A DNA stretch of 64,000 nt from Glandiceps talaboti (lineage: Eukaryota > Hemichordata > Enteropneusta > Spengelidae), in the NCBI RefSeq assembly GCF_964340395.1, contig NC_135550.1, forward strand, positions 21,894,176 to 21,958,175, in the 5' to 3' direction. Both the position numbers and the translations under genes were made by a program. The first letter of the stretch is position 1. The number at the start of each line of letters is the position of its first letter. Below, in pieces: positions 18,294 through 42,993 of this stretch. The notes under the pieces are model-generated. The model was not told the origin of the DNA. It saw only the letters and a program-made list of their open reading frames with translations, and searched no databases.

Positions 18294-21200
18294 CTAACTT
18301 GTGGCAGGACAAGTCCACATATGGATGTAACAAAGACGAGATCCACTGGTTATGTCTGATGACTCGCCACCACACTTACATCGGTATTGTTCTATTCCAC
18401 TTGATGTGTCTGTTTGCGTTTCCAAATAAGTCTCAATTCCACCCATTGTAGAACACGTTACTCCCGTGAAGACTGACGCCCTTGCTAATTTACGTAGCTG
18501 CAGAACAAACAAGAAACACAGTACACATTAGACTACAAAAAAGACAATAAAAGCATTTTCCATTATCATCTGGTATTGTTAGATATATACCATTGATACC
18601 TTGTACTAGTATGTGCACATACTAGTGGTATTTGCACTGCACTTGTACTGGTATGTGCACATACCAGTGGTATTTGCACTGCACTTCAATACTCAAAACA
18701 TTACAGCAGAACCTTGACCCACGAGTGTAACTTTTGAGCTAAACAAGTTGAATATCATTATAGAATTTTACGACATGGCAAACATGAATTCAATTTGACA
18801 AATGTTTAGTTGTCTATACGTCCAAAATGGGTCAATTGTTTTGCCCTTACTTTCTGCAGTCACGGTACATGTACACAGATTTTAGCTAGCCATAGGATAA
18901 ATGTCAATGTGTTGACGAAACAAAACAGAATCTTTGATTTTCAAAACAGAAATCTGTTGGTTATCTAGTGTAACGATGGAATGTAAACTTATGAACTGCT
19001 TATGAACTGCTACAAGAATGCAAGCAAAGAGATCAGAGGTTTAAAAATTATACAATATAGTTTTGTTATATACAATCATGATTTGAAGCCTCCAATGTGT
19101 AGGATGCCACTAAACTGAGTTTACATGACAAATGTTACAAATCAATATTATCATTTTTGTTTTTAATGTGTATACACTATAGACCGACAACCATTTTTGA
19201 CCATCTACAAGGAACACCAAGATGATACAATTCAACATAATGACTCGGTTTTAGTGTGTGCTTAAGTACATCATTAATGGGGTCATTTCTGAGGTTAAAT
19301 ATCTGCATTTTCGAATTGTTGCTTTTTCAATCGTTTACACAATGCTGTTTTCAAATCTTTCCATTTTTGTCTCTTTACGTGAACTCTGTTTTCAAATGAA
19401 AATGGATCACTTTCCAAATGATCCACTTTCAGCAGCATTTCAAATTGTTACACTTTCAGGTGTCATCTTAGTGTAGACAGTAGGTGCAAAGGCAACAAAG
19501 TAGCAGCTTTTTCACCTAAAATGCACTAGTAGTAGAGATTGCTGTAATGACAATAATGGTCTGTCCTGCCTTACCTCTTCGGTTGAAACATGAGGAAACC
19601 ACTGTGTCTCAGAAACCAGTGAATAACCACTGCCAGCATAATTACTACTGTATGTACACGCTGTCAGATCACCAGCACCAGGATCTCCCTTTTCACCTTG
19701 AGATCCATTGTAACCTCTTGGACCAGGCATTTTACTAATGGTGTCTAATTCATAGTAGATGGATGAATTCATGGATGTCAAGGTATTTGTGAACGTAGAT
19801 TCCAAGGTGTCCACTCTGGTTTGGAGTGTAGAAATCTGTTGATGACATTATATATTTATAACTTCAGAAAATGAACTGATGGAATCAGTCACTCTGGAAG
19901 TGTGTATATACATCTTAAATTTTGACCGATTTTCAGCGACGGTCGTAATCAAACTCTTTCCTACAGCTTTGTACAACGAAAGATTTTTGTCAGTACAACT
20001 AGCTAAAGTAGAGGAATTCTCTTGTACACACCTATGACATTGATAAATATATCATGATGTTGACATGTGGAAAATAAGAACATGTAAAATGGCCTGTAGA
20101 AATAAAACAAAAGTTAACTTGAAGAGCTACAATGAATTTTATAAAAAAAACTTTTGAAATGTATCCTCTGTATTTGGGATTTCTCCTAATGTTGAGTTTG
20201 TTTTACCTGAAGTAACTGAGTACAATGTAGTTATGTTCAAATACAAAGAGAAGTCCTTCTACATTGTTTCATCCATAAACACTATTAATGGCTTTATTAT
20301 ATTTAGAGAAGTCTAAAGAAAGCCTTCGTCTTACCTGAGAGTTGTGTTGACTGCTTTGATCTTGTAAAGTCTCTATTTGTTGGGTATGCAAGGCATTAGT
20401 AGCAGAAACCACTTGGGACAAATTACTATGTTGTTGTTTCACTTGTGTTAACTGCAAAGGAATGTTAACTAGGTATCAATACATTGGCAATAAATTTGAC
20501 TTTCGACAATGGCTGCTTTAAGAGGCTATTGAAGGAAATGTGACTTTAGATGGCAATAAATGTGACTTTAGACAGTGGCTACTTAAAGTGACTATCAAGC
20601 ATACACCTTTAAATTATGTTATCACTTTTTTTGCGGTGAAGAGGATAAGCATGTGTGCCCTCTAGTGACATTCAACATACAACACACTGGTAGGTATATA
20701 TGGTACTTCTGATCAACATAAAGTTTCACCATCACTACTGAAAATCGACAACTTCTGGCTTCTCCTTTGTTTTACCTTGATAATTGTCACCAAATGCTGT
20801 AATGAATCACACTAATTACAGTACACTTACCGATTGTTCATTGGTCCCAACTCTCTCGTTTAAACCGATTGCCTTAGAATTAGCTTCTACTGCCAATGCA
20901 GTTGCTATATCCACATCAGTATGGAGTGTCTCAATTTCTGTATTTTGACTTGTCAGGTTGTTAGTGAGTTCTACTATCTGTAGTACAATGCAAACACAAT
21001 GATTATATACTAAAGGTTATAGGCCCAAGAAAAAGAGTTACGAGATTCACACCTGCTTTCTATTAAGTTTCTGAAAATGTACAGATTTAGTTGTTATGTT
21101 GTATTTGAAAACTTATAGATATTTACATTTGATTTAATATTTTTATATATAAGTTGATAATAATAATAATAATTAATAATCTGATCCTTTGCCAAGTTCT

Positions 21201-42200: not shown

Positions 42201-42993
42201 GACAATTTGCTCAAACTCAATTGAAATTTGAAAGGAAGCTGAAAATGAAATTTGCAATGTTCACTTCTCACTCAGATATAACCATTCACTGCTTTTTTAT
42301 GTAGCTGGGAAGTCGGATCTGGCATATGATCAAACCTACAAACAGTAGTTGCCAACATTAGCTATATCATTTTTTTTATATTTAAAGTATGCAAAATGTC
42401 ATGCTATAAAGCAACATGTTCTACTTCAACACATTACATTCACAGTTCAGTTCATTCAAAACTTAACATTTTTTGTGTAAAGTGTGCACAAAACATCACA
42501 AAATCTTTAACAGTTAAGAAGTTTGATAAGCTAACAAAACTGAATGATATACACTAACAAACTGGTCATCATGACAGTACATTAACTATACAGTAGTATT
42601 CAAGCTAAGGTCAGTTGGGGGGGGGGTTCTGTTAGAGATAAGATTCACCCTAAAACAACCCTGGTTTATATTGTCAATCACACGGACCACTTTCACTTTG
42701 ACACAAATAATATCCCAAATTAAAACCCATAGGATTATCCATCTACTTGCAGTACACATTATCTGCAAACCTAACACACCTGAGGTATTTCAAAATCTAC
42801 AACTTTATGCAAACTTTTTACCTTGTTTATGTTGCGGATGAAATGTCGATCCGTTGGCTAAATTCTGAACATTGATTTCTGCAGGTTTCTTTGGAACCTC
42901 TTTCAACTGAAAATGGTCTTCTTTGAAATTATCAGACCCTTCTGAGGTAGGCACATTGGCATAAGAACGTCCAGCCATCATTATTCTGAACAT
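18294..42993 (-). CDS. Long type II membrane protein: Tyr/Pro-rich tail, coiled coil, collagen stalk, six-Cys domain; 9 coding exons, 553 aa
   Basis: Exons: 42993-42822, 41491-41152, 26454-26234, 22772-22654, 21618-21538, 20977-20831, 20451-20335, 19835-19575, 18497-18294; 1662 nt, in frame. An in-frame stop just upstream of the ATG supports the start. Residues 1-215 are cytoplasmic, with APPTPPR and a proline-rich stretch at 66-99, NPYEEL at 102-107, NPTY at 175-178 and a membrane-near CCSC (207-210) that could be palmitoylated. One membrane segment lies at about 216-241. Outside, residues 245-434 are helix-prone, Gln/Leu-rich coiled-coil-like sequence on several exons. Six collagen triplets follow (437-454, [18 protein letters not shown]), then a six-cysteine domain to 553. 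The plan resembles scavenger-receptor or transmembrane-collagen proteins, but the C-terminal domain is not SRCR, C1q or fibrinogen-like. Ligand and function are unknown. Intron 2 (14.7 kb) could hide further exons. Confidence 0.85.
18601..18684. repeat. Two tandem 42-bp units, each with a perfect 22-bp palindrome
   Basis: Units start at 18601 and 18643. The palindromes are 18605-18626 (left half actagtatgtg) and 18647-18668 (left half actggtatgtg). They lie in the last intron of the long collagen-like gene. Confidence 0.85.
21336..21502. repeat. Two (AC)n microsatellites
   Basis: AC repeats at about 21340-21365 and 21437-21501, about 35 bases or more from the coding exon at 21538-21618. Confidence 0.9.
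24770..25470 (+). other. Possible inserted element with a short open frame (uncertain)
   Basis: This part of intron 3 of the long collagen-like gene differs from its surroundings: more CpG, a hairpin built on gtggtaaaat-ccc-attttaccac near 24832, an 88-codon Ser/Thr-rich open frame at 24863-25129 on the plus strand, and an AATAAA near 25452. It may be the 3' exon and 3'UTR of a mobile element. No family is recognised, and it could be chance. Confidence 0.25.
25679..25820. repeat. 142-bp near-perfect palindrome
   Basis: The two halves are reverse complements apart from a few isolated two-base or one-base mismatches; outer ends read agcaataaccccc and its complement. It is GC-rich compared with the AT-rich intron around it. 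Likely a foldback/MITE-type insertion. Confidence 0.8.
25852..26028. repeat. Long (TC)n microsatellite
   Basis: About 165 bases of almost pure TC with a C-run near the start, in intron 3 of the long collagen-like gene, about 200 bases after the membrane-segment exon. Confidence 0.97.
27120..27600. repeat. Degenerate tandem repeat, about 4-5 units of 85-120 bp
   Basis: The block accaaactggaca recurs near 27198, 27394, 27481 and 27567 (the last as ccccaaactggaca), each preceded by a variant of gtgcatcataantaca and a ttcattt/ttcattc segment. Confidence 0.6.
27922..27934 (+). promoter_or_regulatory. Exact DR1 nuclear-receptor-type site
   Basis: AGGTCA-A-AGGTCA, a perfect direct repeat with one-base spacing, the class bound by HNF4, RXR and PPAR/RXR. 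It lies in intron 2 of the long collagen-like gene. Binding is not shown. Confidence 0.35.
30690..30825. repeat. (CAAA)n tracts
   Basis: Two CAAA tetranucleotide tracts separated by about 80 bases. Confidence 0.85.
34320..34490 (+). mobile_element. Dispersed element copy 1 with internal (GTCT)n(GT)n
   Basis: The block ttttagcacaactgaactga, then agtagtgctgtaggca, then GTCT and GT repeats, then atttggtggg. The same order occurs in inverted orientation at 52770-52945. Elements with a conserved core around a GTCT-type microsatellite are known among non-autonomous Helitron-like/mini-me types. That assignment is inference. Confidence 0.5.
34860..35210. repeat. Degenerate tandem repeat, about 3 units of 140-150 bp
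   Basis: Units share ccttatatgtgg/aga near 34886 and 35028, and ccttataggtt near 35179, followed by agtgg-tgggagcaagtgttctactggg-like sequence. Confidence 0.45.
40908..41150 (-). repeat. Two decayed tandem copies of an exon end with splice donors
   Basis: Downstream of the coding exon end at 41152, two further copies of its last ~60 bases and donor appear: one with GGGCTCCTTG|GTGAGA near 41016, one with GAGCCCTCAG|GTAAGT near 40908. The spacers share tctgtgcata. Reading frame is not kept, so these look like decayed duplicates. Confidence 0.6.

Follow-up and report, generated by a model that had tools for sequence, protein, structure and literature searches.

We describe here a family of four genes in the hemichordate Glandiceps talaboti, referred to as A, B, C and D, whose products share a tail, a single membrane segment, a stalk, a short Gly-X-Y run and a C-terminal head with six invariant cysteines. 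Genes A and B lie in the 64,000-nucleotide stretch that was analysed at its full length (contig NC_135550.1, positions 21,894,176 to 21,958,175; hereafter the window), and C and D lie farther along the same contig. We judge the chances about even that the genes form a clustered family of trimeric type II single-pass receptors whose plan resembles that of the class A scavenger receptors and which end in a different head. By sequence, this head matches no family in the libraries searched (Pfam, NCBIfam, solved structures and prokaryote, phage and viral DNA), and silent divergence between the copies is unevenly distributed along the genes.

Gene A and its three paralogues

Gene A occupies window positions 42993-18294 on the minus strand. 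Its nine exons (Table 1) lie where a sequence-only reading of this DNA had placed them and join into a product of 553 amino acids followed by a stop codon; all eight introns are of the GT...AG type and phases agree across every junction. From the N- to the C-terminus, the protein has a tyrosine-containing tail of about 209 residues, which hydropathy shows to be without a hydrophobic stretch at its start, a sole membrane segment (Kyte-Doolittle maximum 3.59 at residue 219, 19-residue window), a helical stalk about 168 residues long, six Gly-X-Y triplets and the head, with cysteines at residues 459, 501, 526, 528, 542 and 549. Residues 263-430, in the stalk, are poor in proline and glycine and show a hydrophobic period of 3.5 residues (p = 0.005; 2,000 shuffles, uncorrected for the three periods tried). 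Six glycines spaced like those of residues 437-454 arose in only 1 of 20,000 shuffles of the protein's own sequence. The predicted type II-like layout, the coiled coil (here a helical stalk), the triplets and the six-cysteine domain of the sequence-only reading all stand. Its term "collagen-stalked" was an overstatement: most of the stalk is helical, with collagen confined to a neck of 18-21 residues.

The upstream end of gene A is less secure. Exon 1 has no counterpart in B, C or D and is the least certain exon. An acceptor-like site at about 43041 lies closely upstream of this exon and of its first ATG, so that a 5' non-coding exon probably exists farther up, which leaves the start codon uncertain. 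For exon 2, the first exon of gene C agrees in exit phase only; as far as sequence can tell, the exon 2/3 junction is backed by phase alone and the exon 1/2 junction is unsupported. From exon 3 onward the junctions are independently supported because gene C repeats exons 3-9 in phase, and since these counterparts have equal phases the chain is not a product of chance. Two simple repeats lie in the introns of gene A: intron 3 carries 78.5 perfect copies of a CT dinucleotide (window 25872-26028), about 200 bases past the membrane exon, and intron 8 has a 42-base unit twice (window 18600-18686), between the two head exons.

Comparison of the gene A protein with the window by tblastn revealed a second copy of its last two exons (identities in Table 1). 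This copy belongs to gene B, a complete paralogue at 11946-9703 on the minus strand that the sequence-only reading had missed. Gene B has four exons encoding 222 residues and runs from a start codon of its own to a stop, with a membrane segment, stalk, Gly-X-Y neck and head in between. A search of the 590-Mb assembly of 47 contigs that contains the window gave seven exon matches at E <= 0.001 among 11 scored candidates, all on one contig; they fall in A, B and, at a distance of about 850 kb, two further loci, genes C (eight exons, 486 residues) and D (six exons, 283 residues), both free of internal stops. Gene C matches exons 3-9 of A in phase, and exons 5-8 are equal in length (81, 147, 117 and 261 nucleotides). 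In gene D, a short first exon is followed by a membrane exon and then by counterparts of A exons 4, 5, 8 and 9; gene B, besides its tail and membrane exons, has counterparts of exons 8 and 9. The best support for the structure of gene A thus came from its paralogues. Each locus holds one long-tailed and one short-tailed gene on the same strand, A then B at one and D then C at the other.

Profile searches covered 203.8 kb, made up of the 64-kb window and 139.8 kb of the same contig, one stretch of it partly N. Below E 1e-14, the head profile matched genes A-D only; a weak match (E 0.083) was seen in stretch L016. Two matches to the full-length profile, at E 0.00025 (L021, a valine-repeat reading) and E 0.062 (L017), were rejected. 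Fragments resembling reverse transcriptases of retrotransposons without long terminal repeats were noted by eye close downstream of B and of C, the lower gene of each pair, and might be relevant to the copying of the 3' exons. Directly past the stop of gene C lies a tandem array (L008 6292-6672) whose minus-strand reading repeats IVDTQVVILHTND.

Tails, stalks and neck

Hydropathy predicts one membrane segment in each of the four proteins. With tail ends defined by a hydropathy threshold, the tails contain 6 tyrosines in 209 residues (A), 10 in 140 (C), 1 in 25 (B) and none in 22 (D). The tyrosine contexts include NPYEEL in the A tail and YDRM and YEEP in the C tail, which we take to resemble SH2-binding sites. 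The stalks are long in A and C and shorter in B and D; the 3.5-residue period of A recurs in C (p = 0.0005) and D (p = 0.02). An uninterrupted Gly-X-Y run of 18-21 residues is present in all four proteins. The Pfam collagen model stays below its cut-off of 27.2 bits in B (15.4) and D (16.3), and is absent from the listings of A and C.

The six-cysteine head

The head spans about 97-101 residues in the four proteins. Its identity to that of A is 70% in B, 58% in C and 60% in D (alignments of 100-104 residues). All four heads share, without change, the six cysteines, a Cys-Pro-Ala motif close to the end and a Ser-Val-Phe-Thr-Gly-Val stretch.

No Pfam model reached its cut-off, whether with the four complete proteins or with their heads, and searches of the PDB by sequence gave no credible match with a single head (eight sequences listed) or a head profile (four listed), in agreement with the sequence-only reading, which had not been able to place the domain in a known family. 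Among Pfam matches to E 10, a range in which the HMMER filters discard most matches above about E 0.1, there was no SRCR or C-type lectin model for any of the four heads or for full-length A, and no C1q, TNF, fibrinogen, olfactomedin or collagen IV NC1 model for any of the heads; of the latter group, full-length A gave only Fib_alpha, at E 2 and in the stalk.

Several candidates were rejected. DUF7736 appeared with all four heads (best E 0.0072, with 16.9 of the 25 bits required) and is both below cut-off and partial, covering about 25 residues. DUF5815 (two heads, E 0.071) and DUF3937 (one head, E 0.25) are also below cut-off, and the NCBIfam model MymT, found with one head (E 0.025), reached 14.5 bits against 80. 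In the single-head search of the PDB, designed repeat proteins took the first three places, at whole-sequence E-values of 5.1e-18, 1.3e-14 and 5.2e-5; these were discarded because the values add up repeats (12, 9 and 3, respectively) of a single stretch of about 20 residues that scores at most 9.4 bits per copy. The five other sequences of that search (E 0.14-0.94) and the four zinc-finger chains listed with the profile (best E 0.28) were not retained either.

Searches of viral, prokaryote and phage DNA were also negative. In viral contigs, 4 and 10 stretches fitted a peptide pattern and tblastn confirmed none; in prokaryote genome contigs, none of 51 such stretches was confirmed as a relative; and phages gave no match. 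A literature text search with six head and neck peptides returned no match, and among the papers listed by subject searches none describes this family in its title or abstract opening. Structure prediction for the exon-9 peptide (67 residues of one exon alone, two sequences) gave a mean predicted local distance difference test score of 47.2 and a predicted template modelling score of 0.30, too low for the model to be of use.

Uneven silent divergence between the copies

Silent divergence is lower over the Gly-X-Y run and head than over the membrane segment and stalk in all six gene pairs. The respective values are 0.28 and 0.59 for A-B (p = 0.0006, the weakest pair), 0.29 and 0.60 for A-C (p = 3e-6), 0.29 and 0.64 for A-D (p = 4e-6), 0.22 and 0.56 for B-C (p = 9e-5), 0.21 and 0.74 for B-D (p = 1e-8) and 0.08 and 0.62 for C-D (p = 1.7e-15; Fisher tests on rounded counts). 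One region-wise comparison used only pairs with at least 20 aligned codons, which left out five of the six pairs for Gly-X-Y, three for exons 4-5 and five for exons 6-7, mostly where exons are missing. The step is also visible within exon 8, where third positions differ at 47-89% of the first 18-19 codons and at 9-29% of the later ones; the test for this step falls below 0.05 in five of the six pairs and is 0.052 for A-C.

For the head, all groupings except AB|CD are rejected by the approximately unbiased (AU) test (below 2e-4). The step down in silent divergence over the neck and head, together with a membrane exon that prefers AC|BD without rejecting the other groupings, would fit gene conversion of this part between neighbouring copies; constraint on silent sites is the alternative explanation of the uneven divergence. 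The ratio of non-synonymous to synonymous differences (pN/pS) is 0.57-1.20 for the whole head and 0.46-1.70 for its halves; no value exceeds 1 significantly, and that of A-B lies below it (p = 0.022).

A proposed receptor plan with a different head

The closest likeness is to the class A scavenger receptors (SR-AI, MARCO, SCARA3, SCARA4/SRCL and SCARA5). According to PMC3567963, these are type II proteins with a helical coiled-coil stalk, a collagenous part and a C-terminal end that varies from member to member; the collagenous domain has about 75-250 residues, the tails have 30-55, and a single exon holds part of the tail together with the membrane segment. The last arrangement is found in exon 3 of A and exon 2 of B, C and D. 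The type II plan is likewise predicted for all four proteins from the single internal hydrophobic segment, and a helical stalk before the collagen is predicted for A, C and D by the period test. In contrast, the collagenous part is limited to 18-21 residues, the A and C tails far exceed the usual length, and the head, judged by its Pfam matches, is unlike the SRCR or C-type lectin domain of some members, or the lack of one in others. Since both collagen length and head depart from the class, A-D may work in a similar way without belonging to it.

If A-D are indeed receptors of this kind, the tail would lie in the cytosol and the head outside the cell. The coiled coil would nucleate a trimer, the helical stalk of variable length and the neck of 18-21 residues would keep the three chains together, and the neck would act as a short rod or hinge. 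Three copies of a putatively disulfide-rich head could then bind an extracellular ligand. Once clustered by it, the long-tailed A and C might signal inward by tyrosine phosphorylation, and the short-tailed B and D might take up ligand, act as decoys or partner other chains without signalling themselves. Exchange between copies would concern the Gly-X-Y run and head, with tails and stalks kept apart. Such receptors may have a part in recognition or defence. For the product of gene A itself, trimerisation is predicted, and a receptor or adhesion function is plausible.

A more tentative extension, which we consider possible and no better than that, is that the head founds a new domain family on lineage-specific recognition receptors, in which a long and a short chain are paired at each locus and the head exons are recopied under weak constraint as the tails diverge separately. 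Fast-evolving immune receptor clusters offer a comparison for head exons being copied while signalling tails diverge. Should the head prove to be novel in fold, or a ligand-binding module restricted to a lineage, it would represent a new tip on the collagen-necked type II receptor plan. The family would then be a small and testable set of invertebrate receptors, two long-tailed and two short-tailed, and the uneven silent divergence provides a concrete test of whether a binding part is shuffled apart from a signalling part.

Several observations weigh against receptors with exchanged heads. Six to seven Gly-X-Y triplets are very short for a stable triple helix, and in B, whose stalk is short, the period of 3.5 residues falls short of significance (0.10), whereas those of 3.6 and 3.667 reach it. 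The net charges of the 20-residue flanks of the membrane segment (before/after: +1/-3 in A, +1/0 in B, -2/-4 in C and -2/-2 in D) do not firmly predict an orientation. As regards exchange, the membrane exon favours AC|BD weakly, with the other trees still standing (AU 0.077 each), and 13 of 21 informative sites over residues 400-457 also group AB|CD. The runs test is modest (58 informative sites; 637 of 20,000 shuffles). Intron 8 holds no clear conversion tract; C and D are similar there at 0.552, a marginal excess over 20 shuffles (mean 0.467, maximum 0.551). Finally, as no pN/pS value of the head is significantly above 1, diversifying selection is not proven.

The same layout could belong to a membrane-anchored matrix or adhesion protein, similar to the MACIT collagens, whose ectodomain links to the matrix, is perhaps shed, and uses the head as an assembly or attachment module. 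Collagens XIII, XXIII and XXV and their invertebrate orthologues, including COL-99, are type II membrane proteins with collagenous ectodomain parts, according to PMC4678570. That source gives the mammalian members three collagenous domains and C. elegans COL-99 seven, in a largely collagenous ectodomain, whereas A-D have one run of six to seven triplets and a cysteine-rich head. The A and C tails, of 209 and 140 residues, are also at odds with the short cytosolic domain of MACITs, and we regard this explanation as unlikely. A membrane-tethered trimeric ligand, showing its head to a receptor on another cell and perhaps shed, is in our view no more probable. Ectodysplasin and gliomedin follow such a plan, being type II proteins with a stalk, a short collagen segment and a C-terminal head. 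The Pfam listings of the heads and of full-length A contain no TNF, C1q or olfactomedin model, which sets the A-D heads apart from those two proteins, and the long tails of A and C, rich in tyrosine, point to signalling into the cell.

Rather improbable is a secreted protein akin to CTHRC1 or C1q, in which the hydrophobic segment of B and D is cut as a signal peptide and the product is soluble. The segment begins at about residue 26 in B and 23 in D, so that such cleavage is possible there; in C and A it lies about 140 and 210 residues in, and is no ordinary signal peptide. According to PMC7058181, CTHRC1 likewise joins a short collagen run to a C-terminal orphan domain that is refractory to sequence searches. 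This domain has 130-150 residues in the same source, against about 97-101 for the head, and the membrane segment and stalk of A-D are additional. Mis-joined exons or decaying copies, with no genuine gene family behind them, can be considered highly improbable. The lack of a counterpart to exon 1 of gene A would fit them. On the other side, the membrane, stalk, Gly-X-Y and head exons are equal in order and phase in four copies without an internal stop, and between A and B non-synonymous divergence (dN 0.15) is lower than synonymous divergence (dS 0.41; 140 codons). The joining of tail and membrane exons to the collagen and cysteine exons, on which the sequence-only reading depended, is unlikely to be undone: three paralogues keep the same order and phases. 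Receptors with a scavenger receptor-like plan are the reading that we retain.

Feature coordinates and other features of the window

Table 1. Positions of the genes A and B, their parts and the associated fragments (window numbering unless a stretch is named)
Feature	Positions	Strand	Description
Gene A exon 1	42822..42993	-	residues 1-57, start of tail; open frame, GT donor, exit phase 1
Gene A exon 2	41152..41491	-	tail with tyrosine and proline-rich motifs; AG/GT; enters in phase 1, exits in phase 2
Gene A exon 3	26234..26454	-	end of tail and membrane segment; membrane exons of B, C and D also enter in phase 2
Gene A membrane segment	26241..26321	-	about residues 216-242; approximate borders, set by eye
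Gene A exon 4	22654..22772	-	juxtamembrane linker and first part of stalk; counterparts in C and D
Gene A exon 5	21538..21618	-	stalk helix; 81-nt counterparts in C and D
Gene A exon 6	20831..20977	-	stalk helix; 147-nt counterpart in C only
Gene A exon 7	20335..20451	-	stalk helix; 117-nt counterpart in C only
Gene A exon 8	19575..19835	-	end of stalk, Gly-X-Y neck and first third of head; counterparts in B, C and D
Gene A Gly-X-Y neck	19671..19724	-	six triplets, residues 437-454
Gene A exon 9	18294..18497	-	remainder of head (five of six cysteines) and stop codon
Gene B exon 1	11897..11946	-	short predicted cytosolic tail; 50 nt against 47 nt in D exon 1, similar exit phase
Gene B exon 2	11092..11201	-	membrane segment
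Gene B exon 3	10228..10532	-	short stalk, Gly-X-Y neck and first third of head; tblastn identity to A 64%
Gene B exon 4	9703..9906	-	remainder of head and stop codon; tblastn identity to A 71%
Reverse-transcriptase-like fragments	window 9608-9393; L008 5236-6081	-	by eye

A search of the window with Rfam gave nothing at the gathering score. An apparently multi-exon sulfatase gene lies at 6207-1999 on the minus strand and includes a Cys-Thr-Pro-Ser-Arg stretch; a peptide of its first exon matches the Pfam Sulfatase model at E 1.3e-15. A second sulfatase-like last exon was seen by eye below the window, in stretch L018. Two minisatellites are also present in the window, one at 55949-56507 with a 23-base unit in 24.3 copies (89% match) and one at 56894-57194 with a 45-base unit in 6.7 copies (99% match).

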